Of a stretch of 64,000 nucleotides of DNA, positions 8,055 to 64,000 are shown in pieces. This stretch comes from Zoroaster sp. YZ-2022 (taxonomy: Eukaryota; Echinodermata; Asteroidea; Forcipulatida; Zoroasteridae). The position numbers and the translations under genes were made by a program. The DNA lies in contig CM055816.1 of assembly GCA_029582265.1 (NCBI GenBank), positions 81,028,472 through 81,092,471 on the forward strand. Direction: 5' to 3'. Numbering within the stretch: position 1 is the first letter of the stretch; each line of letters begins with the position of its first letter. The notes under the pieces are model-generated. The model made no database searches. It was not told where the DNA came from and saw only the letters and a program-made list of their open reading frames with translations.

Positions 8055-11071
<3,017 letters not shown>

Positions 11072-13576
11072 AGAATAAGGAAGCAGCGTGTTACACAAAG
11101 AGATGCAGACAGCGATGAACCATTGGCTAAGACTCCAAAGCTAGACAGTTACGGATGCACCAAATGGAAATCACCTCTGCCTGACGGAGAGACAGAAGAG
11201 AGCCAGATGCTTATTAAAGAGGAACTGAAAGGCTTATTTCCTCTGGGACGAAAAGAGTGGGACTTAGCCAAGATAAAAGAGTTGATGCTACTCACGTATC
11301 CTTCACAGCGTAAAGACATGTGGTGAAACAATTACTGAGCTTCAGAAGGAATGGCCTTTCCTGTTTCCATCTCTTTTGTGTCATTTTGAAGAGTTGGTTG
11401 GTTTCCCTTTGCTGGCCACTTTGACCGCAGCAATTCGATCAAAAGGAGAGATGATGAGGAAATACTTTTCTTCTAAGAAGGTGCAAGCTGTCTTAAAAGA
11501 TGCAAGACCCTTTCTAGAAGTCTCCAATATTGACATCAACATTGAATCAGCAGTGGTTGTGCTGCTTCTACTGGCCCACTTTGGGGAAAAGCCCAACACC
11601 TTCTTCTTTATGACTGAGGTACGTAACAGTTAAAACAATGAGAAGGCAATAACTGATGACCCTTAAAACATTTTCTGAAAAAAAGACTTGGCTATTGCAA
11701 ACTGCTTACCAACCAAAAATGACCTGAGGTATAAATGCAGAATTAGTCACCACCTCACGTTTCGACCCCATAGCAGAGTCTTTCTGAAATGTTTAAGCTG
11801 TTTTTCCTAAAACAGTCTGTCATTTGAAAATAAAAAAAGTTCCTTTCTTCCGTCTCTGTGCAAACAATTGGTTTATTTACCTGATTTTGTGAGGTTTTTA
11901 CTTATCATTAAAAATCGAAGGGCTTTGTTCTTTTTTATACAGAGTACCACTGTAGCTCGGGATATGTCAGGCAATGCTTCCCTGCCTAAAACACCGTGTC
12001 TGGTTGTATGTGGTAAGTGGAAATATTATATTGCAGTTGAACTAACTTCATCTAGTCTTGTTAAAATCACTGGGATCTATTTCACATATAATTGTTCTAA
12101 TTACATACAGGCCTCACACTTAACACTAGTCGGTGTACATCCCATTGTGTAGTAAAAACTGCTGCGGACTAACAAAAACCACTTCTAAACTTGCCGGTGT
12201 GGGCTACTTAAAAAGTGTGTAATATTCTTTGTTTTCAGATGAGAATACAGAAAATAAAATGAACTTTTGCAAACCTTGTAACTTTATAAATTAAACCATA
12301 ACAAAAATTTAACAAAACTGATTGTGAGAACAAATGTTGAAAAATGACAAAGAAGACGAAGACATACAATAAAAAATGCAAGGGATAATATCGCTAAGAA
12401 TTAGTTTAGAATCTGGGTTTCTAAAAGTGTCCCCGGGCAAGTAAAATGAACAATTGTGGCAAGTTTTATGAAAATCGGTCGTGAACTTAGGAAAATACGA
12501 AGGGGGGGCACATTGTGCCCCCCCTCCCACTATAACTCAAACCTTTCACAGATCTTTGGATACTGCAAAAAATAAATTGTACTTTATTTGAATCAATTGT
12601 TTTTGTTGAATAACTTTCTTCAGGATGCTTTTGTTTTATGTTTCTTGCATTTTTTCCCTTGTTTGTGTGTCAAAAGGTGAAACGTTGATGGTAGCAAGAC
12701 GCTTCATGCTTGTGATCGACCACTGTGTTGTAAATTACAGTATCAACAACTTCACAAGGGCACTTGCGGAGATGTTTGCAGCATTCTATGTGTATAACAT
12801 CATGTATCCACATGATGGAGCACACACTATGGAGTATATTCAAAGGCAAGTTTGTTTCATTATCCTTCCTGTATACCCTAACAACAACAGTTACAACGGA
12901 CCTGATTTTCAAGACCATTGTGTGACTATTGTAGCTGTTGCATAGTCACCATCTTACTTATCTTATTCTTCCATACGTTCAAGATCAAACAGATGGTTGC
13001 CATGGTAACATTTGACCTCCGAGAACTTTTTTTTACTATCATGACCATAGACAATTTTTGGGGAAAGGTCAGAAAGTTTGGTGGTGGCTCATATGCAGTG
13101 TTAAAACTTTAAGGGGAAAATATTGTAGGGTGGGGGACATTGCCAACACCCCCCCCCCCGTCCTGATAGGGTTTAGAAATCAACATCCACTAAGCAATAT
13201 TGTATCAACAATCATCGACCTATGTATGAATTTGAAATCCAAACTTGCAGCAAACGTTTCTGCCTGTCGGTATGTGCGCGCATCCTGTTTTTGCATAAAT
13301 TTGGTTTAGCAGTGACGTCACAAGAAAATTTATGCATACCGCCGTGCAGAAAACATGACTGCACGATGATTTGGTAAACAAAATCATGGAGTACATCATC
13401 TAAATTTGTATGCAAACACTTTGATGTTTGTTACTGTTCTGTTTTTTAGGGTATTTGCTTGCATCAATCCGGATGGGAACAAGATCGAACGACGTGGGAA
13501 GAAGGTGTCGGCAATATCACCAAGGCTTCTGACCCTAACAAATGCAGTTGCTCACTTTCACATGCTGAACAGATAG
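11072..13576 (+). pseudogene. C-terminal exons of the zinc-finger/SAM transposase-like gene
   Basis: The frame interrupted at 8412 resumes at 11072 (RKQRVTQRDADSDEP, then GCTKWKSPLPDGETEE). After a frame change near 11325 it continues with ELQKEWPFLFPSL and LLLLAHFGEKP to a donor at 11618/11619. Further exons are 11943-12012 (TPCLVVCG), 12677-12845 (ETLMVARRFML, AAFYVYNIMYP) and 13450-13576 (FACINPDGNKI, KKVSAISPRLLTL), ending in TAG at 13574. Splice phases agree for the last four exons. The intron 12846-13449 uses a GC-AG pair (AAG/GCAAGT). The ending is typical of the family, so the 3' half is better preserved than the 5' half. Confidence 0.7.
12502..12524. repeat. G7...C7 perfect hairpin in intron
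   Basis: GGGGGGGCAC-ATT-GTGCCCCCCC, a perfect 10-bp stem with a 3-nt loop. It lies in a ~60-bp stretch (cccactataactcaaacc) that looks like a dispersed repeat, in the intron between 12012 and 12677. Confidence 0.8.
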
Positions 13577-16987: not shown

Positions 16988-17713
16988 TAGCTAGGATGAT
17001 CCTATCCCTTATGTTTCCACATAAGGGCTAGGATAAAGAATGTAAAAAAAAAACGTAGATGCATGTTACGTGCATTTAGATTTCCATTATCATTTGTCTT
17101 TCCACATATGGTCCTTTGCATTGTCATGTACAATTATCAGAGATTTCCTTCACAATGTCATTGAAAAGAAGCTGGGCATAATGCAATAGCGGAATGGAAA
17201 TCTAAATTCCATCTATTGAATAGCTCCATTCTGCCATTGAACATATTGAATAAAACTGAAACAGCCGTGGGTTTGTATTGCACAAGTTTTCAACACGCAT
17301 TTAACACATTGAGTCGGTCGGGGGCGCTGTTTGCCGCTCCGCTCCAGAGCCAGCCCAATATACGGCTCTGCTCGGCGCCGGTAATTGCACCTATGACCGT
17401 GAAAACGGATGGAACAGTAGGTGTACGCCGTGTTATCACATCGTGCGGACAGAATCGAACCGCAGAGAAGATCAAAACAAGGCAAGAATTGGTCAAAAAC
17501 ACAGTGTAAGTTGCAATATTTTTTATGATCAAAGGCATACACATAATAACAATACAGTATAGATTCATAGTAGATTCATAGATTTAAGGTATTTACAGTG
17601 CAATGTGTGTATTTCTTCGTAAAACATGCACATAAACATGCATCTACGTTTTTTTGTACATTCTTTATCCTAGCCCTTATGTGGAAACATAAGGGATAGG
17701 ATCATCCTAGCTA
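16988..17713. mobile_element. Mutator-like MITE, ~78-bp TIRs, 9-bp target duplication
   Basis: Terminal inverted repeats start TAGCTAGGATGATCCTATCC and run ~78 bp (16988-17066 and 17635-17713) with only a few differences, mainly A-run length. GACAGTACA is duplicated exactly at 16979-16987 and 17714-17722. A 9-bp duplication with long TIRs is the signature of Mutator-like elements. Each TIR itself contains a hairpin (cccttatg...cataaggg). The 570-bp interior has no transposase frame, so the copy is non-autonomous. Confidence 0.9.
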
Positions 17714-27590: not shown

Positions 27591-28800
27591 AATTTGGGTC
27601 ATGGGTCATGAAAAACAACTGATGTGTGTAAACACATGTACAGCACTGTTCAAAAACATGAAGGAAGCAAAATGAACGAAGGTGATGAGGACATTGTAGT
27701 GTTTATATTGCAAGCAATCTCACATTTTTTGAGCGTTAATACAGTTGATGACAAGGAGACGTCAATTGGCCATTGGCGTACTGCAGCAACTTAATAACGT
27801 GAGTAATTCGAGTTTTATTGAGTGCTTTTCCCAGGAGGTGGGGCTGGGGACGGTAATGCATAACATTGCTCCCAAACATGGCAAATAATTGTTCCATAAA
27901 GGAGAGATAATTCATATTTTGCATTTTTAATAAATTTTCTCAGCCCCTTAAAGAGTCTGGGAAAGAATGTAGTATTCAGACGCCACTTTGTTGGTTGTTG
28001 GAGACTCGTGAACATTTTAAAAGTATTTTCTATTTTCTAACAAAATTTGAATTTTTTTCAGTCTCAAATTTGTGTTTTTTTCAACATAATTATTAGCAAT
28101 GACTGCATGACCATCATTGAAGATATATATGGTGAAAAAAGTGGTGTTTGAATACTACATTATTTCCTTAAGTTGAACATGTTGAATGAAAGTCATGAAT
28201 GTAACAGTAATTTTACTAGTTCCGGATAGCACATTTCTTTTGAGTATCTCACATTTCAAATGAAATACAAAATTTTTGTTAAATTTACCTCATAGAAATG
28301 TCACAAACAGCACAGAAGGTTTCACTCCTTAAGACACCTTCATTTGATTTTGAATACACGATTTAAAATATCTTCTGGCCCATTTTCCTAGATCGAATCT
28401 ATTCCGGATAGCAATGTTAAACCAATGGGTGTCATTGCAGAACAGCTAAGTTCATTCACACAAAAATTGCACGGGCATGAATATTATATCCGGAACTGGC
28501 AAAAAACTTGCTGCCATTCTTTTTGTGATTTCTCAATTTTCACGGCACATTGCATTTAAATTTCAGTACAGACTTGGAGCTTTGAAAATGTTAACTGTTT
28601 CAATCAAATTTGAATGTTTAAAAATGTTTGGATTGATCTTGTAAACAACAAAAACCTCTGGCGGCGTGATTCAAGATGGACATGTAGGGTTGGAAAAAAT
28701 TTACCTGACCTGACCCGAACACTATCTAATGCAAAGACAAATAGAAGCCTTAACAACCCCATTATATATTCATGATTCTTTTTTTGTTGACTCTGTAGAT

Positions 28801-30245
28801 TCCCCGTGGGCCGTACTGCAAGTTTGGGACATCCTTTTTGTTGTCGACCCTGCAGAATGGAGAAGTAGACCTAAAGAAGGATTTCCGGTTATCAAGAAGA
28901 GCATTTGTCAAGCTCATTAACATTATAAGAGTAGACAAACATCATGGCTGGCAGACTGAGGTAGAAGTACTGCTATTTTTGTTTTGGCTGGCATGTGGTT
29001 GTGCTTACATGGTTGTGACGAGGAGCGTTGGTGTGCCATTGGTAACTGTACATGATGTTGTACATAGACAACTTAATGCCATTGTCAAACACCTTCCACA
29101 ATTCATCCATTTCCCAAATCCAGAGGAATACAATGATATAACTCAAGGGTGTTCTTGTCTGGCGGGAACCCCAGCCATGAATAGGGCAATTGGTGCTATA
29201 GATGGAACACACATCAGAATAATTCCTCCAAGTCAACACAAGGAAGACTACCACAACCGCAAAAAACAATATTCTATTCAACTTCAAGCTGTGTGCAATC
29301 ATGAGGGTGTTTTTACAAACATCTTTACGGGCTATCCTGGTTCAGTACATGATTCAAGAGTATACACCAATAGCCCTCTGTATTTGAATCAGGATATTCC
29401 TCCTGATGGATACTACCTTCTGGGAGACTCAGCGTACCCGCTCTCACATTCACTAATAACTCCCTACAAGGAGCCAGATGCCCTACTACCCATACATGCA
29501 AGATTCAATTACCACCACAGCAAAGCCAGGTCCATCATAGAAAGAGTGTTTGGTCAACTAAAAACACGATGGCGTAGCATCTTCACCAAAGACGTAGAAG
29601 TAAGGTGTAGCTGTGTTCCACAGATTATAACAGCTTGTGCTGCGATGCACAATTTGTGCCATGCTTCTGGTGAGTATTTGTGTACACCATTTGTACAGTG
29701 TATTCATACTTTAAAAGGCTGAGGAAATATGTACAGAAACCAACTTAAACTGAAAGTTACATCTGATTTGATCACTGTACCATTTACAAAAAAGGGAATG
29801 TATTTCGATTTCTTTACAAGTATTCATTGTAAAGTAGACATTGGATCAAAATTGTGATACATTCTAAATTCTACTTTACATTTCACATTTTCTTGAAAAT
29901 GAAAATATGTCAAGCAGAAATTTTACTTCATGTTTACATGTAGTATTTTTATTGTATAAATTTGAACTTGTACTTAAAATAAGAACTCAGTTAAGCTTTT
30001 ATCAGACTGTGAGGTTTAATTTTTTAGTCATTGCAAGATTTCCTAATTTTATTTTCACAGGTGATATTTTGGAAGTGGAGGATGAAGACGATGATAATGG
30101 TATTGATAGACATGATATCCAAGCAGGAGAGATTGAAGAGGCTGAAGGTGTTGGCATGAGGGCAAGACTTGCACCGCTTATATCAGCTCCTGCAGACTAC
30201 CCTGACCACATGCATGACCATGAATATGTCATGTTACACCCATGA
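28801..30245 (+). CDS. PIF/Harbinger (HARBI1-like) transposase
   Basis: Nuclease that cuts and moves the element, acting in the nucleus with the Myb/SANT partner encoded at 33622-35224. Exon 28801-29669 follows a tctgtag acceptor and ends at a GTGAGT donor. Exon 30061-30245 follows ttttcacag, and the phase agrees across the junction (CAT GCT TCT G / GT GAT ATT). Catalytic acidic residues are visible in AIDGTHI (D1), GDSAYP (D2) and IIERVFGQLK (E), the DDE_Tnp_4 pattern. Other family blocks are NRKKQYSIQLQAVC and GYPGSVHDSRVY. The C-terminal exon is acidic (EVEDEDDDNGIDRHD). No stop or frameshift is seen over ~350 residues. The initiating exon was not identified upstream of 28801. Confidence 0.9.
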
Positions 30246-53981: not shown

Positions 53982-56521
53982 AATCTTATAATGACCGTAA
54001 GCCAAAGTGCGTATTCCGTTTTCTAAAATATATCTCTTTGTATCTAAAGGAGATAAGGAGATTTTTTTTAGCGCGTATCGTGTATAATCGATGATATTCG
54101 TGTCTAATAGAATTCATAAAATGATAAAGCGTATCATTTTGAAAAAAAACTTAAATTGCGAGTGTTTAATTACATTTTCCAAAAGTTGTTTTTTAACGCC
54201 TTTTGCTTTTTTTTTATTTCGCCCTCGTTCGATAAAAGCATCGAGTACATTTTTGGTCTTAAACCGACACATTCGAGGATTGGAATTCCGGCCGTCTCGT
54301 CTTTAAATTTCCCGATGACCTTTTTATTCTTTTCGGAATAAAGATCATTTGTTTTTAAATAATTACTAAAATCGTACAAATGCGCATCTTCTTTCATGTC
54401 TTTAAAAACGTCTTTCGTTTGAATCTCGACCAACAAGCTATCCGTATCCGTGTAAAGTAGATTACATTTATCGCCGTACTTGCTTTTTAGATGATTGTAA
54501 TAAAAATCGTACATGTAAGCTTTAGATAAATCCAAAATAACCATTCCGACGTATATGGGGCGGTCGAGTACGAGTTGTAGTTTATGATTTTGAATCGCCA
54601 CCAAATTGTTATCGAAAATTTTAGCTTTGGCGAATGTCGGCTTCGCGATTGCTTTACGGATTTGTTCTTCGTCTTTTTTATCGTTTAATCTCATGAGATT
54701 CACGTTGACTCGATTTCGTAAACTTTCCATCGTTTTTCCAAAGACTGAATTATTCATGAGCTTGTATAAATCTTTTTCAAAATCTGACTTTGCATTTTTT
54801 CTGAGTTTGGTATTTAATTCGATACAAGACTTCATCCACGGCGTTTGATTAAATTTTAAAACGCGATGAATTTTAGTCAGTTTCATACCGAGTTGTAAAT
54901 GCAATTGTAAATTGCGATAATCGAGCACGTATTTCGTTTTGTTGTATAAATTGGGAACTAATTTTTTTTACGTTTGGTGCGGGTTTGTCGTTTAATAGGT
55001 TTTGCTGAGTTTCAGACATCCATTCTCTCGGTATCTTCAACGACTCTGGCGCGAGCGGATAATCGTTGTGAGAATCGTGAGAATTCTTTAACATATTCTA
55101 AATCCACTTCTAAAATGTAGCCCTCGCTCGATTCCGACGAAATTGATTTTATATCGAGTTTATTAATTTCACATTTATCTAACCATTTAAATTTTCCGAT
55201 CGGAAGGTATTGACTCATCGCCCAACCGTATAAATTATTCGCGTCTAAATATAAGATGTAATTCGTAGGTTTTGATGAATCGTAATTTTCAAGGTGCGAA
55301 TTGTTTGCTTTAGCGTATCTCTGACTTGTCATCGATATACCTCCCCTAATGCCTTTTTCTATAAATAAATGCATGTCGATATCGGTCAACAATTCTAAAC
55401 GTACTTTCGAATGTTTTAACAAAGCGTCCCAACTCAAACCGGGACCCGTGTAATATTGAGCCGGATCCAACTTGTAGTTTTTCATGCAAGTTGTACGAAA
55501 ATTTTCAAACACGTCGGCTAATAAGCATACATCCGTGCGCACGTATAAATCGTGATAATCTCCTAGAGTTTTACATTCGAATTTGTTCCAAACGTTCTTT
55601 GCGCGATCGTATTCTTCGCTCGTATTCTTCGCTCGTAATGTGTTTTTCGTTTAAACGACTATAAAAAGCTTCTTTCGGAGGAAGACTCGTTTCTTTAAAT
55701 CGTTGGAAACTATCCATGTATTCGTATGGATAAACGCCTTTCTTTAAAAGTAGCTTTAATTTTTCTAAATTTGGTTCGTGTAATTTAGAAATGCGAAAAT
55801 AATCTAGATCGTTTGATTTTACGAGTTTATCGAGCGAAGCTTGTAAAAATTGAAAGCTGTCGATAAAACGCAGTTGCTCGATCGAAAAAGAAGTGTACTC
55901 TTCCATATCGTTTGGAATACAGTTTAATGTTCCTTTCGTTTGACTCGCGGCTTGCATGATGAGATGAGAGTCGTATCCTCGCAAATTATGAAATACCACC
56001 GGAATAAATGTTTTGTTTGGTTTTATGCTCAGTTTTAAATTACATTTCCTATGCGCCGCACCGCGATATTTTCCGGTAATGTGACAATGAAACCTGACTT
56101 TCTCGTATCCGTTTTTAAAATCTTCTACTTTTTCTTTTTCGCAATATAATTCGTTAGAATATGCTTTTTCGCACGCCCAACAATCGCATTTACCGCCCGG
56201 AGTTTTAAAATATTTTTCGTCGAGAGTGTGAAAACTTTTCCACCCGCAAATCCAACATTTTTTAGCTTTTTTATAATTTTCTTCTTCTTCTTTAGTCATG
56301 ATTATTTTTTCGGGGGTTTTAAATATCTCGTTGATTTTTTTTTACTTCTTCTTGCAATTTGTCTAAAAAGTGTTTGGCGGCATCTTCGCCTCTGTACGTC
56401 TTGCGCGAAAAATCTTTACCGTCGCATCGAACGATTACGTACGAACAACCGCAAACGACGTGTTCTTGAATTTTTTTAGTATTGGTCGTACTCGCATCGC
56501 CGTCAACCTTTACGAGTATCG
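53970..56521 (-). pseudogene. Polinton family B DNA polymerase, central and C-terminal parts
   Basis: Protein-primed-type replicative polymerase with 3'-5' exonuclease. Reading leftwards: a Cys/His zinc-like block (KKCWICGWKSFH, FHCHITGKYRGAAHRKCN), Exo II (VFHNLRGYDSHLIMQA), Exo III (RTDVCLLADVFENFRT), motif A (LDANNLYGWAMSQYLP), motif B (KLMNNSVFGKTMESLRNR), motif C (LLYTDTDSLLVE) and a C-terminus KRYILENGIRTLAYGHY, ending at 53970. Frame breaks are at ~56300, ~55570, ~55015, ~54930 and ~54170. A short tandem duplication (gtattcttcgctc) lies near 55605-55640. The gene is cut at 56521 by the nested transposon and resumes at 63628. Confidence 0.9.
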
Positions 56522-56535
56522 CACGGCTGTTTCAC
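56522..56535 (+). repeat. Left terminal inverted repeat of the nested transposon
   Basis: CACGGCTGTTTCAC, preceded by the target duplication ATCG (56518-56521). A CpG-rich subterminal stretch (gcgtatgtgacgcgcg) and a tgacgtca site (56609) follow. Confidence 0.95.
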
Positions 56536-57289
56536 GCGTATGTGACGCGCGTAAAGAAGTTTTCCCAGACCGTAGCCACTCATGCATAATTCATGTGAAA
56601 ACGATGACGTCACGCCAATAATGGCTGCCCCCATAGATCACAGAGCTGACGAAAACAGGGTCGAAATATCAGCGAAATTAAACCTTCACACGAAGGAAAT
56701 AGACGTTCTATTAAACTTTTCTGATGAATCATAATTAAATTATACTGTTGTGGTTAGTGGGTGCTTACAAAAATTTAAAAGCCGGGGAAAAAAACACTTT
56801 TTACGTCGTATTCGTACATCGTCTTTGGTTGTTCGAAAGATTCAAACGACGTTCCAAAAACCTCCCTTGTTACTTAACAGGGGCTAGTTTTAACTTTTCA
56901 AGAAGGATTATTAAAACGAACTACTATGATCACTTTTTAAACGTTTAATCTCATGTAGGACATTTTGTTTAAGTATTCAATAATGTTGTTGAAAACTTGT
57001 AAAAATCGAGGCCTAACAAAACTGCCATTAATATCGTTTACGAACGTTCCGTGCAGACGGCCCAGCCGCAGTAACTTTTTCGCTGGTAATCCCATTAACT
57101 CTATCATTTTGTACGGTGTTGTGTGGGCACCGGTGATATACGTCAGAATGGCGCGCTATGTAAATACACTAGTTTACACACAAAACTTTCATCAATATTC
57201 TACACAGTAGATTATACGGGAGTACAGTGATAAAAAACGCACAGGAACAAAGATGAGTTTCAGTGATATTTACACATATTTTATTCATT
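56536..57289. promoter_or_regulatory. 5' leader of the nested transposon gene
   Basis: 750 bp without a supported frame between the left repeat and the first ATG. It includes tgacgtcacgcc (56609) and a ttataaa-poor AT-rich stretch. It presumably holds the promoter; no TATA box is evident. Confidence 0.4.
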
Positions 57290-60200
57290 ATGAGTTTCAA
57301 ATTCCATCAACAAGCTCTAGGAAAAATTTGTAGAGTATGTACAAACAGAATCACAATTCACGGTTCTCGTAACCTTCCAAAGGAAACCAGTGAGTATAGC
57401 AAATAATTATTTAATAATTTCGGTATAAGTGTATGGGAAGATTCAGCGGACCAGCATCCATCAAAAATATGTGAAAAATGTTCAAGAAAACTAAGACACT
57501 GTAAATCTGGAGAACGATTTTATACTGTTCAGAGCCTCAAAGATAAACAGCGAATCCAACAAAATTGGCCAAAGCATACAAGAACTGGAACTTGTTTCGT
57601 GTGTGAACTTTTTACGCAACAGTCTAGAGGAGGACCGCAGTCTAAACCAAAGGCTGGTAGGCCTAAATCAACAATAGCTTGTACACAAACTTTGCCATTT
57701 TCACTGAGCGATGACAATATATTTCATCAATTAAGTGATGCGCAACATATGGAATATCCCATTAGTTTTGAAATCATTGGTCATCAGTGGGAACAGTCAC
57801 TCTTCATTTGTAGTATTTGTCGATGTATACTGGGAAAGCCATCAGTTCAGACACCGTGCCAACATAACTTCTGTGCGCAATGTTTGACACAGTGCTTTAA
57901 GCATTCGTTAAGTCCAAACATCAACTGCCCAATATGTAATAAACATGTACAGTATAGTAGCATCACTTCACGTCCCAGAGTGCTGTGTTCAACTGGACAA
58001 TCTAAATGTTGTGTGTACAGCATGTGATGGCATTGGACAAATAACCCGATTATTGCAACATGAGTGCCGTGTTAAACAGCCCAAGCCAGTTTCAAATTCG
58101 CCGGTCTTCAAACTGGATGAAAAAGAAAACGACCCCGAACCCTTTGACCCAACAAGTGCTGCAGAGATGCTAAAAAATTTAGCGAAGGCCCATAAAGTTG
58201 GAGACCCCCTTCCCCCTGCAATAGAGGCAGCTACAGACAAATGGATGTGGTTGAAATTAAAATCGGCCAAGTCAGGAGACTGTACCACCATACACACTGG
58301 AGGTCGAGTAAGTTTTAGCTAATTTAAATTGACATAAGTACATGTTTGTACATGTATATTCACATTTTAACATTGTTTATAAAATATAAATTTAAATTAA
58401 ACTATGTCCAACTATAAAAAAAAAACTTGATAAATCGAAAATACAATAGTATGCTTTTATACAAAAAAGTAATTAAAGAGTGGTTTAAGCTTCAATCATC
58501 TAGTTCTTAAAAATTTTTGAAATACAGACTTGTCTTTATCTCATTTATATTCTATTATTTACAGCCTGCTCGTATCCAAAAGGTGACCCCACCAACCAAA
58601 GTCACGCCTAAAATACAACAGAGTGCAACTTTATCAGCTGACACAGCCCTTGCCATGATGCGAGATTGCCATCTGGCCTGGGACCAGCTAAGGAAGCTTC
58701 GAAGGTAGTTGTGAACAAATATTTGTAATAATGCTATTAACAAAATACATTTTTGCAGTTAACTATTTCATGAAAATTGAATGAAAATATATCATAATAA
58801 AATTTATAAATAAATATGAGTGTGCAAATCTACATCTATTTCACTTATGTGGCCAATACAATTTTACAGGAATCCACAACATTAATTACCCACAGATACT
58901 TTGACAACAGCTTCAAAATTACTTTCGAGAGAAAAATGAGACAAAAACAAAACAGCCTTTTGAAGGACAATTTGCAAGGGGAGAAAATAAACCTTCTCTT
59001 CAACAGCACTACTGCTGATGGCAAAAATGGTTTGTCAGCACAAAGTGTTCCCTTTGTGTTTGTCAGAGACATTGCTGCCATGATAGTAGACTACCTGGAT
59101 CGTATCGACAGGTAAATATTGTCACAACACTTTTGTGAAATTTTAATGTTTCAGTTAAAGAATGTTTGTTTTACCTAAGCTAGTAATATCAAGTGTATGG
59201 ATAATAAAAAAATTAAAAAAATAGAACAAAAAAACAAAAAAAATACTCATTGACCAACATACAATTGTTTACATGAATACTGTCATTTCCATCCACAGGC
59301 AAGGTATCTTAACATGGCATGAAGGTATCTTAACATGGCATGAAGGTGTCATTCCCCATGATGAAATATGGATTAAGTTTGGTGGGGACAAAGGGGGCAA
59401 CTCATTTAAAATGAGTTTTAAAATCTCCAATGTCCCACACCCAAACTCACTCACAAACACCATCGTTTTTGCATGCTTTGAGGCCACCGATTCCTATGCC
59501 AATCTCCTGTGCACACTTCCACCAATAATGGACCAGATTGCTAAACTGTCAACACAGACATGGCAGTAAGTGCTTTTTTGTTGAGTTTTAAATGCACATT
59601 CAATGAAAATTTGTAAGTCTCTCACTGCCAACGCCAAATCAATGCTTTTTATAAACAGGCATATTATTTTGCATCGTTTCTTTTTGCAGTGACCGATCTT
59701 TCAGACTCTTTGGGTATGGAGATTATGAGCTTCTCAATAAGCTGTATGGAATCAATGGATGCAATGGTAAGTACATTTATAGCTAGTTATTACAACTTAC
59801 TGAAATTTATTTCAACTGGCACATGAATTTATCTTTTTTGTATTTTTTGTTTTCACAGCTCGGTACTGCTGCATATATTGTGAAGCGTCCAAGGATGATA
59901 TGCAGCATCCATACCAAGAGAGAGCACCCTCAAAACCAAGGACACTCGCTTCAATTCGTTCTAGGTACCAGGATTTTCTCAAAGACGGTGCGAAAAAACT
60001 ACGATCAAAGGAAGTTTCCTTTAGTGTAGTCCATGAGCCAATGATGCCAATTGAAATCAACCACGTAAGTTTTGTACATACTACCACATTAAAATCACCT
60101 GCTGTTTAAAGTGTATCCTTCAGCACTGTACATGTACTATTTGTTTCCATCGGACTTAAATGAAATACCTATTTGTATTACACTTTTACAGGTCGTACTT

Positions 60201-61834
60201 CCCAGTCTCCATCTCTCTCTGGGCATTTACAAGAAGCTATTTGATCTTTTTGAGAGTGCCTGCCATGATCTGGATCTGCAGCTTTGTCAGTTGAGAGCTC
60301 AACATGATGACACCGATCTTCCTTCCAGTTCCAACTTTGAAGATCAAATTCTAACAGAAGCAAAGCGTCAACAGGAGATCAGTGCTGTGCTGGCTGAAAA
60401 GCGTGTCTCTCTTGAGAAGATTGAGGAGGACTTACCTCTGTGCGTCCTCAACAAACAACAGTTTAGTGTTGAATTTCGTGAACTGGCCAATGAAGCTTTC
60501 AGATTGAGAGCTGAAATAATGGAGCAGATGTGTAATCTATCTGGTTATTCACAAAAATACATGCAAGTTTTTGTGATTGTCACTTTTGTACACCCCTGTA
60601 TTTTCATTAATTCTTATAAGAATTTGTGCAAGTTTTTGTGATTGTCACTTTTGTACACCCCTGTATTTTCATTAATTCTTATAAGAATTTTTCCCCTCAG
60701 GAAAATGAAGCAGCTTCCACCATAATGAACTTTGCCACAGGTCCTGTATCTAGCGCCCTTGATCATGTCTTGAGTTCCTTCAAAGTTCATAGGCAGGCTT
60801 ATCATGGGAAGTCTTTCGTCGGCAACCATGTGCACAGATGCTGCAAGGTAAAAAGAAGCCAAAAATGTTTTTAAAATATTAGTAAAAAACAAAAATTAAA
60901 ATGGTCTGTGTAATATTTTGCACTTTAAAAAGTATGAGTTCTTTGTACTTTTCAGCCAGATGTGATAGAAGCCCTAACTTCAGTTCCAGTGCAGAAGGTT
61001 GAGGAGAATCTCAGCGGTGACATACCTCTTGCTGCACAGGACCGCTTAAATCGGCAGGCAGCAACATGCCGCAGCAACTTCAGTAATATTTTTCTGAAGT
61101 TTGCCGACGTGCATCATGGTATAAACCATGCAGAGCGACTTGATGTACACAATCTAAAACGAATTGGTATGTATAACAATACATAGCGACTGTACATCAC
61201 TTTGAATTCTTTGTTGGTCAGGGGCCAATTTCATAGCGCTGCTTAACAAGTAAGCAGATTTTTCTGCATACTTTAACAGAAAAAAGTTGCTTACTCGCAA
61301 GCGTATTTCACAGGTTAGCAAGAAAATTAGGCGACCAGCTTGCGCGTTTACTTTGGATTTGCATTGTTACTTCATTCAATAACGTTAGGAGCACCATGAA
61401 GTATAAATCGCACTAAGCAACAAATCGGCTGTTAAGCAGCTCTATGAAATTGGGCCCAGCATAGAGGATCCTTTATGTAATGTTAACCATAAATTGGCTT
61501 CTTTTGTTGAATTACAGATGTTTGCATCAAAGATTTCATGAATTCATACAGGCTGATGTTCCCAACACAAAATATCACACCAAAACTCCACTTACTCGAG
61601 GACCACGCAGTCGAACAGCTCACCAGGTTTCAAGTTGGATTTGGTTTACTCAATGAGCAGGGTGGTGAGCTGATTCACACTGAGTTTAACCGCACAGGGA
61701 GAATCGTCAATGGTATGCGGGATGACCTGGAGCGACTGATGTCCATAATGAGGCGGCATCACATCAGTACCGCACCAGAAGTGCGGTCAAAAGTCATCAA
61801 GCCTGCAAAAAAAATAATAATAATAAATAAATAA
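57290..61834 (+). CDS. RAG1-N-terminus/transposase fusion protein, 10 exons
   Basis: Exons: 57290-58307, 58565-58704, 58870-59111, 59299-59565, 59690-59766, 59859-60064, 60192-~60562, 60701-60847, 60956-61166 and 61518-61834, with consensus GT-AG sites at nearly all. Exon 1 has zinc-binding pairs ICRVC, ICEKC and CFVC, then a RING: CSICRCIL, PCQHNFCAQC, CPICNK, followed by CTACDG...HEC. This spacing mirrors the RAG1 N-terminal region. Exons 4-10 encode a DDE-like domain: IKFGGDKGG (D), LFGYGDYELL (D), a YCCIYC finger, LHLSLGIYKKLF, and NEQGGELIHTEFN (E). The catalytic roles are inferred. Defects are a TAA at codon 39 (57404) and a frameshift near 57970. A 24-bp tandem duplication sits in exon 4 (GILTWHE twice). 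Confidence 0.8.
60561..60692. repeat. ~68-bp tandem duplication across an exon 7 boundary
   Basis: tgcaagtttttgtgattgtc...cattaattcttataagaattt occurs twice in direct succession. It begins exactly where exon 7 should end (AAATACATGCAAG/TTTTTG), so the 5' splice site region is doubled. The next acceptor is ttcccctcag at 60691-60700. The donor itself is weak (GTTTTTG). Confidence 0.85.
61222..61457. mobile_element. MITE with GGGCCAATTTCATAG ends in the last intron
   Basis: Terminal inverted repeats GGGCCAATTTCATAGCGCTG and, inverted, GGGCCCAATTTCATAGAGCTG, each followed by CTTAA. The element is 236 bp and lies wholly within intron 9 (61167-61517). Ends of the GGGCCCAATTTCATAG kind are common on palindromic invertebrate MITEs. 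Superfamily and duplication were not resolved. It is the third nesting level: MITE in transposon in Polinton. Confidence 0.75.
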
Positions 61835-62129
61835 ATAAAGGATAAGCAAAATGAAAATATCATATTCCTGCAAATTCCACAATATTAATTTTTTACATTC
61901 CACAGAGTTTGCAATATTTGCACAGGAACAGTACATACGTGTCCACAAAATTCCCCTGTGAAGAAATAAAGTCCCCCATACAGGACTCCCACTGGGAGTT
62001 CCACAGCTATGCACAAGCTGTATACCGAGTGTTTTTGCCCACAATGTTTACTTACCTATTCTATGATGATCGCCAGCGTCTTCGGCTACTAGTCAAAGAT
62101 GCCTCAGCGTTAACTATAAACTTTGTTTT

Positions 62130-62166
62130 TTATGATCGCGCGTCAAGTTTTCAGTTGCGCGATCAT
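62130..62166. repeat. Short palindrome TGATCGCGC...GCGCGATCA
   Basis: Arms of 9 bp around a 15-bp centre, just downstream of the transposase gene. It might be a subterminal site or the edge of another small insertion. Confidence 0.6.
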
Positions 62167-62235
62167 CGATAACGAAAAATGCAGGTCGCATGAGGTCATA
62201 CTGTCGTATCGGTGCGCATGAGCATCAGTACTTAT

Positions 62236-62293
62236 CATGGCGGCTGATGTCGGTAAAGCAGTATCAATTCTCTATAAATTTCAACAAAAAAAG
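62236..62293 (+). CDS. Candidate first exon of a second gene
   Basis: ATG in a strong context (atcATGGCGG) opens MAADVGKAVSILYKFQQKK and runs into a consensus donor AAA/GTGAGT at 62293. An initiator-like CpG-containing stretch precedes it. No matching downstream exon was found before the element end at 63627. The exon could belong to a second transposon gene, or be chance. Confidence 0.3.
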
Positions 62294-62533
62294 TGAGTGG
62301 AATACCGATTTTCTTTTTACTGGCGAGCATCATAACATATGTAAGAAAACATTGTGGGCAAAATTTAAGCAAACATTGTACCGTTTTTTATCGAAATCCA
62401 TTTGACTGACTAGCGCTATGAAGGCATAGGGCCAAGAGTCAGACAGAGTCCACAATATTGGCACTAATTATGCGTCTAATAATAACCCAAAGTTGAGCTG
62501 TTCAATTAAAATACAATAACTTCAACCAAAACT

Positions 62534-62617
62534 TACCGCTCTACGAAACCAACAGACTGTGTCATCTGAAGGATGAATAGCACTCGAGTAGTTGAACATC
62601 CTGGAATTCGTTGAAAC
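62534..62617 (-). CDS. Candidate minus-strand exon in the transposon right arm
   Basis: Flanked by a ttttgtag acceptor (right) and GCG/GTAAGT donor (left) on the minus strand. It contains ATG followed by FNYSSAIHPSDDTVCWFRRA, open throughout. It is short and without recognised homology. If real, it would start a second, divergently transcribed gene near the right end. Treat as a hint only. Confidence 0.3.
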
Positions 62618-62619
62618 CT

Positions 62620-63613
62620 ACAAAATAAACCAATGCAAATTTAAATAATAGTTATAAAACAAGTAGGCCTATTTCTAAATTTGTGGTGTAATGTTTTGAC
62701 ATTCTGGAATACATCAAACACAGCTTGCAACTTATGACTCACAGGGGGGAGCATTCTAACAATTAGCGAAAGATAACACGCTTATTGTATACGTTTTAAT
62801 AATACTATTAGTATTACTGTATTTTATACATATGTACAAAAATTAAAAAGTTTTTTGTCAGGTAATAGGCCCTAACTAATAATATTACCAAAACCAAATG
62901 ATATGGTAGGGAAGCCAAATGTTGTGGTACGTTAGGGAATGGAAGCAAACAAGAGCTATAAAAATCATGACATTCAACGTCAATAAACATGTGCTAAAGT
63001 CCCCAGTTTTTAACATGTGTACAGTTCGCCCCCACAAATCTCGCCCCGTTGCATCTTATTCTTCATTGGAATTAAGGGGCGAAGTTGTATTGGGGCGAAA
63101 GCACGTGAAACGTATAAACGGTGTTGAAATGTTTACAAAAAATGCCAAACTTTTCATAGCTTTAAATCATCCAAAACAAAATGTCCTACACTTACTTGTC
63201 CATTTTTCCTGAAGTACATCATCTTGTGAGATGATGACATGTTTTTAGGGTCCGTTGTGACTTGTGTTTATGAGAAATGAGACAAAATGTCTGGTGATCG
63301 TCCGTCGACATGTAGAGCAGTCCAGACACAATGCGGGCTGTGTGCGTCACGTGTATCTTTTTCCCGCATTAACTCCATGACCCCAACGTACTTCTGCTTG
63401 GTAGTGGCGGAAGGTCACATATTTTTAAATAATTTTACCAGTTTACATATGTAAAAGTTTCTATCAACCAATCAGGTTATCGCTTTTTACGAGGCCACTT
63501 TACATAACGGTTGACGCGAAAAGGAATGTTTATAAATAAACTGCATGGGTGACGTCATAGACACATTATGCACACTGACTAATATCAACCGAAAGAGGGC
63601 GCCTTTTAAAACA
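62620..63613. other. Right arm of the nested transposon, mostly non-coding
   Basis: AT-rich sequence with one MITE-like inverted pair (TTCGCCCC near 63027 and GGGGCGAA near 63075-63100) and a tgacgtca site near 63551. The 97-codon frame at 62919-63212 spans that repeat and is not a credible gene. Confidence 0.5.
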
Positions 63614-63627
63614 GTGAAACAGCCGTG
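63614..63627 (-). repeat. Right terminal inverted repeat of the nested transposon
   Basis: GTGAAACAGCCGTG, the exact reverse complement of the left end, followed by ATCG (63628-63631). Confidence 0.95.
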
Positions 63628-64000
63628 ATCGATTCAAAATCCGCGTATATTATAATATACGCGGATTGTTTTTTCATAAAATGAATATTCATGAGGCGTT
63701 AATTAGCGCGTCATACGAAAAAAAAAGTCGGCGCATGCGCAATGCGTTTATTCCATTGTCTGTCTACGTGATTACGAAAGGAACTTTCATCATTTTATGA
63801 AAGTTTTTAAATTTCATTATATCGTTTTACCCGCTTCTGGCATGACGATCGCCGTCGGTCTGTAGTCAATTCCCTCGCACTCTGGGATGTGTTTTTGTAA
63901 CGAGGCTTCGGTCGTATAACCGTGTAAACATCTCGTACAAACATTTTTGCGTCCATTATATTTTGTTTGATCGTGAAGTAAACGGTTAAAATTCTTGATC
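63628..64000 (-). pseudogene. Polinton DNA polymerase, N-terminal part (continues past window)
   Basis: On the minus strand from the window edge: NFNRLLHDQTKYNGRKNVC, RCLHGYTTEASLQKHIPEC (a C2H2-like finger), TAIVMPEAG, then after a frame change FKNFHKMMKVPFVI. The ExoI segment YADFES (63631-63650) follows, but a 118-bp insertion (63653-63770) separates it from the preceding piece. The ExoI Asp and Glu are both visible. The fragment stops at the target duplication of the nested transposon (63628-63631). Confidence 0.85.
63653..63770. other. 118-bp insertion in polB forming a 30-bp palindrome
   Basis: The polymerase coding segments PFVI (63771-63782) and YADFES (63631-63650) should be adjacent but are separated by 118 bp without coding sense. 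ATTA flanks the insert on both sides (63649-63652 and 63771-63774). The insert's left 15 bp are the inverse of the neighbouring polB bases, so 63638-63667 is a perfect palindrome. The ends are not inverted copies of each other, so it is not a standard MITE. It contains an A9 run and gcgcatgcgcaatgcg. Confidence 0.8.

Follow-up and report, generated by a model that had tools for sequence, protein, structure and literature searches.

The 64,000 bp window analysed here, from the genome of Zoroaster sp. YZ-2022, carries at positions 56522–63627 (+ strand) an element of 7106 bp. We consider it highly probable that this element belongs to a multi-copy Chapaev-like cut-and-paste transposon which codes for RAG1-N-like zinc fingers and a RING finger, followed by a DDE transposase for which the RAG1/Transib core fold is predicted. 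Copies of the element occur at a minimum of 40 places in the genome, share their ends and a 4 bp target-site duplication, and come in two size classes. All predicted transposase exons are open in one of them (L012), and the front end of the encoded protein is homologous to the N-terminal region of RAG1 by profile comparison.

Ends and copies of the element

Both ends of the window element were read directly, and it is a member of the full-length class (class A). Its left terminal inverted repeat is the 14-mer CACGGCTGTTTCAC (56522–56535), and its right terminus (63614–63627, − strand) is the exact reverse complement of this sequence. The element is flanked by the target-site duplication ATCG (56518–56521 to the left, 63628–63631 to the right). 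Exact 14 bp inverted ends and a 4 bp duplication had already been reported in a first-pass annotation of the window, and both are confirmed. When up to two mismatches are allowed, the 14-mer occurs three times in the window, compared to 0.20 occurrences expected by shuffling. The third occurrence, CACGGCTGTTTCAG at 17256–17269 (− strand), has one mismatch to the end of the element. A single occurrence of this variant was also seen in L024, another copy locus, at offset 7531 of the turned strand, and the site possibly represents the end of a related family.

The assembly from which the window originates (1.0 Gb, 616 contigs) was searched with the RAG1-N-like part of the element (window positions 57250–58100). 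This probe resulted in 112 first-look candidates, 40 of which, including the window, were scored. Besides the window, 20 copies were fetched long, and for the remaining 19, only the regions where a short copy should end were fetched. Near-identical front parts (96–100% identity) are found at all 40 scored places. The probe is spanned entirely in nine of the 40 matches, and the other 31 stop near probe base 806, which corresponds to window position 58055. For the 20 long-fetched copies, the alignment starts exactly at 56522 in 18 cases and stops exactly at 63627 in 14 cases, with the remaining copies being truncated or extending past the fetched DNA. The element boundaries given in the first-pass annotation thus survive the comparison with other copies.

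Both ends are within the fetched DNA for 25 of the 40 copies (complete copies, the window included). Not counted as complete were the pairs from L013, L019, and L020, which involve an end-like site with three mismatches, and a pair from L024, which uses an unrelated downstream site. For the other 15 copies, one or both ends are outside the fetched DNA, and some may have been missed by the guessed end window. An exact 4 bp target duplication is present in 19 of the 25 complete copies (12 of 14 in the long-fetched set including the window, 7 of 11 in the end-sampled set), and duplications of 5 bp or longer occur in none of the 25. A strong sequence motif was not seen among the 19 exact duplications.

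Predicted transposase gene and its state in the copies

Ten exons are predicted on the + strand, extending from 57290 to 61834. They have AG acceptors and GT donors, with the exception of exon 7, for which the donor is GC in each of the seven compared copies that keep this exon. Exon 1 (57290–58307) codes for a cysteine-rich RAG1-N-like (Chapa) zinc-finger region, a RING finger, and then a zinc finger. The RING finger is recognized by Pfam zf-RING_UBOX (E 7e-6, above the cut-off); its best PDB match is RAG1 (E 4e-6), with TRIM RINGs scoring alike. Exon 2 (58565–58704) continues the terminal GGR of exon 1 to GGRP and is followed by exon 3 (58870–59111). The later exons match DUF1280 (E 5e-19), including exon 4 (59299–59565), which carries the predicted first catalytic Asp (GGD, 59387–59389). 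The predicted second catalytic Asp (GDYE, 59721–59723) is in exon 5 (59690–59766). A C(2)C zinc motif is encoded in exon 6 (59859–60064, with the GT donor beginning at 60065) and an LH motif in exon 7 (60192–60562). After exons 8 (60701–60847) and 9 (60956–61166), the gene ends with exon 10 (61518–61834), which codes for an H(4)H motif and the predicted catalytic Glu region EQGGE (61655–61669) and contains the stop codon. An open reading frame (ORF) of more than 105 amino acids is not found 3' of the transposase in the window element, and a RAG2-like gene is thus not seen, though exons could be missed.

Of 7992 candidates scored in a search with the transposase core, 30 proteins were identified as relatives. 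A source is named for 26 of them, and these come from echinoderms, lancelets, a hemichordate, and cnidarians. The best relative (P0001 from Asterias amurensis) shows 63% sequence identity over 99% of the core. In an alignment of 24 proteins, LH is invariant, and conservation reaches at least 90% for the Asp of GDY, both C(2)C cysteines, and both H(4)H histidines. EQG.E is invariant across the eight longer relatives. A profile of the relatives matches RAG1 residues 105–395 with a colinear front end, and RING matches are obtained with the window copy. The RAG1-N-like coding region recognized in the first-pass annotation holds. The predicted model of a relative has the RAG1/Transib core fold (RAG1 460–1008). 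A PDB sequence search with the core gave three matches (E 0.048 to 0.49), with no transposase among them.

Exon 1 of the window copy is affected by a stop at codon 39 (57404–57406) and by a frame change at codon 232 (near 57983), while exon 4 contains an in-frame 21 bp tandem duplication (59301–59342). As judged from its sequence, the insertion in the window is dead, its gene being disrupted by the stop and the frame change. In copy L012, which is devoid of the outermost 65 bp of the left end, all ten predicted exons are open and the splice sites are kept; by prediction, an intact transposase gene thus exists in this genome. Exon 1 is also open in L009, which has frame changes in exons 2, 3, 6, and 9.

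Eight long-fetched copies (L009–L016) align wholly or partly to the full-length element (class A), and the other 12 (L017–L028) break at 58055 and constitute a short class (class B). The alignment of class B copies resumes at 61641 in 11 of the 12 and at 61670 in L021. In them, exon 1 (which extends to 58307 in the full element) is retained as far as 58055, together with a remnant of exon 10, and the stretch absent from them (58056–61640, + strand) holds both predicted catalytic Asp codons. Stops in exon 1 are shared at codon 58 (12 of 12) and at codon 93 (11 of 12), and in those copies in which the frame reaches the joint, it ends shortly past it. Additional sequence of 514–548 bp is present at 57167 in all class B copies except L017. 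Among the end-sampled copies, 11 of 19 have both ends at short-copy spacing. In the segment shared by the two classes, class A copies differ from each other by a mean Kimura two-parameter distance of 1.4%, class B copies by 1.0%, and copies of different classes by 2.1%, with no clock applied (L016 was dropped from this comparison as it does not span the segment).

The same genome was also searched with a core exon as probe. The resulting 20 candidates represent 21 places, fewer than the 31 scored places of the short class obtained with the front probe. Twelve of the places are near full length (87–100% identity), two elements are represented by two pieces each, and five are weaker. Weaker matches (67–80% identity) at G000:C150:5228-5581, C3:53154224, C11:3067924, and C1:73571389 are, by their sequence, probably other, older relatives of the transposase.

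Given its deletion and shared stops, class B is most readily explained as a single founder lineage whose members are passive derivatives. These are likely moved by the transposase of full-length copies, which would supply the enzyme to elements in which both predicted catalytic Asp codons are missing. The transposase would be produced by splicing of the ten predicted exons, would bind to the 14 bp CAC ends, and may make RAG-like hairpin breaks. The likely course is a cut at these ends and joining across a 4 bp staggered target cut.

Placement of the family and its relation to RAG1

Chapaev transposons are described, in the relevant passages of PMC4079192, as having CAC/GTG ends, target duplications of generally 3–4 bp, and the motifs C(2)C, LH, and H(4)H. 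Termini 5'-CAC and GTG-3' are present in the window element and in other copies. Together with the 4 bp duplication and the C(2)C, LH, and H(4)H motifs in the predicted DDE transposase, they show that the family fits Chapaev. Two Chapaev subgroups have a Chapa domain followed by a RING, as in RAG1 (an excerpt of PMC4411706, citing Kapitonov and Jurka 2007), and this domain order, with Chapa corresponding to the N-terminal part of RAG1, is also found here. By these hallmarks, the window element represents a new family within the already known Chapa+RING Chapaevs. As far as these subgroups are described in the sources, the family has in common with them the ends, the 4 bp duplication, the three motifs, and the zinc fingers and RING before the DDE core, but it has its own ends sequence, its own host, and many deletion copies which bear the front exon. 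The first-pass annotation had assigned the element to a poorly characterised RAG1-N group and had remarked that the duplication is of 4 rather than 5 bp. The former does not apply to an element with its own predicted DDE core, and the latter is not anomalous because duplications of 3–4 bp are a Chapaev hallmark. In the sections available, Chapaev transposases are described as only distantly related to those of Transib (PMC4411706), and EnSpm, Mirage, Chapaev, Transib, and RAG1 as having motifs in common, with duplications of 2–5 bp in the CMCT clade (PMC12730594).

Several observations weigh against our interpretation. A perfect 4 bp duplication is missing from six of the 25 complete copies: its halves mismatch at one of four bases in L009 and L017, and a clear duplication was not found at the complete ends of L033, L043, L047, and L063. 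The first Asp (GGD) is outside the columns which are at least 90% conserved, and several alignment rows end short there. The core fold is predicted for a relative and not for the window's own protein, and by sequence profile alone, the match of the core to RAG1 is weak (probability 14%, E 0.0019). Beyond the GGRP motif, a RAG1-type nonamer-binding domain is unsupported by profile (probability 0.4%). RAG1_imp_bd was found neither in P0001 nor in the window's piece, which starts after the stop, and a protein search with the N-terminal residues 1–345 of P0001 gave P0001 alone. The placement in Chapaev is by hallmarks and not by a tree. The family is likely young, with its age being uncalibrated.

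CAC ends and a RAG1-like protein are also features of RAGL (ProtoRAG) transposons, and CAC ends together with the RAG1/Transib core fold (predicted for the relative) are features of Transib. It is nevertheless improbable that the element is a RAGL or Transib transposon with an unusual 4 bp duplication. Duplications of protostome RAGL are stated to be invariably 5 bp, and RAGL has a RAG2L partner (from the pertinent part of PMC7204232); neither is seen in the window family. Transib likewise has 5 bp duplications and, in the account excerpted from PMC4411706, neither Chapa nor RING, whereas the window family has 4 bp duplications and both domains. Sequence similarity of the core to RAG1 is very weak, as opposed to that with the closest DUF1280-bearing relative (see above). 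With no 5 bp duplication among the 25 complete copies, membership in RAGL or Transib is rejected.

Even less probable is an N-RAG-TP proper, which would carry only a RAG1-N-like gene and depend on an unrelated transposase. N-RAG-TP of Aplysia (Panchin and Moroz 2008) is described as wholly RAG1-N-like, and its recombination with a Transib has been proposed (according to a portion of PMC8355894). The prevalence of matches which stop at 58055 would agree with this, as the 12 long-fetched copies among them have the RAG1-N-like exon without the core. However, there are full-length copies that share these ends and have a complete predicted transposase gene, and class B copies are internal deletions of them. 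The presence of the core in the window element and of the exon 10 remnant in class B contradicts an N-RAG-TP proper for this family. One might also assume that class B keeps its RAG1-N-like exon because the encoded protein is selected for, e.g., as a transposition repressor, given that the deletion spares most of the front exon and that the short class is found at more places than the core exon. The shared stops at codons 58 and 93 make it unlikely that the front exon is translated as such in class B and largely refute this assumption, to which we give slightly less credence still. Finally, the junctions in the window are known from assembled sequence alone, in which they show no signs of misassembly. 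As the same ends and 4 bp duplications recur at many other genomic sites, an assembly artefact is rejected as having a negligible probability.

The Chapaev-like family can also be compared with vertebrate RAG1. Besides the colinear front end and the core fold in the relative's predicted model, the spacing of metal-binding and acidic motifs is the same. The window family differs from RAG1 in being mobile, in its 4 bp target duplication, in that RAG2 is not seen, and in the lack of support for a nonamer-binding domain. In the relative's model, LH is separated from H(4)H by additional long helices (about 695–813). Chapa zinc fingers, RING, zinc finger, and the predicted RAG1-fold DDE core would make up a head-to-tail homologue of RAG1 within a Chapaev. 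Class B resembles the Aplysia N-RAG-TP, compared by its published description only, in carrying mainly RAG1-N-like coding sequence, but its members derive by deletion from a full Chapaev-like element. We tentatively suggest, at slightly less than even confidence, that RAG1-N-only transposons such as N-RAG-TP arose through internal deletion from Chapaevs which already carried such a head-to-tail homologue, and that the RAG1 architecture predates the split between Chapaev and Transib/RAG. If this is true, a fusion of N-RAG-TP and Transib is not needed to explain RAG1.

The family is of interest for its parallel to RAG1 over the whole length and for its abundant deletion copies, which nearly fit the description of N-RAG-TP. 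It illustrates how a full RAG1-like transposon can give rise to elements that hold mainly the RAG1-N-like part. Near-identical copies with exact ends, one copy in which all ten predicted exons are open, and a short derivative that is abundant make the origin of the N-terminal half of RAG1 testable. A predicted RAG1-fold transposase with 4 bp target staggering can be compared to the RAG and Transib enzymes, which use 5 bp. In a partial literature search, no title reporting Chapaev derivatives restricted to the N-terminal part was found.

Host site and other features of the window

The host gene looks like a Polinton-type polymerase on the minus strand, based on motifs read by eye. In the right flank, YADFE (63633–63647, − strand) adjoins the junction, and ORFs to the left, within 54170–55650, carry YTDTDS and LYLDANNLYG. 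The flanking ORFs are unnamed by searches against Pfam, NCBIfam, PDB, and viral contigs. An rve-like integrase ORF (E 2e-6) and a Pox_A32-like ATPase ORF (E 0.0014) are nearby, both being below the curated cut-off. The first-pass annotation had placed the insertion in polB: its position beside the DFE motif of a polymerase-like gene holds, while the name polB relies on the by-eye motifs. The polymerase-like frame is broken at several other places, so that the insertion cannot be said to have killed the polymerase, and the proposed inactivation is moot. About 120 bp to the right of the junction (63650–63775), which look non-coding by eye, also interrupt the putative polymerase.

Two MITE-like (miniature inverted-repeat transposable element) inserts were observed within the element. 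One (62033–62363) has inverted repeats of 44 nt which are 89% complementary and 243 nt apart. The second (61221–61457) has a pair of 28 nt inverted repeats and is located in the intron preceding exon 10.

Elsewhere in the window, broken reverse-transcriptase-like ORFs, by eye of the non-LTR (long terminal repeat) type, are found at 9092–11140 (− strand); one tested piece of these had no Pfam match at E 0.01. About 400 bp at 8396–8816 are a near-pure trinucleotide repeat (ATT/AAT type) which is open in several frames. An ORF at 28799–29719 (+ strand) codes for a DDE_Tnp_4 (Harbinger-type) transposase (E 1e-40).
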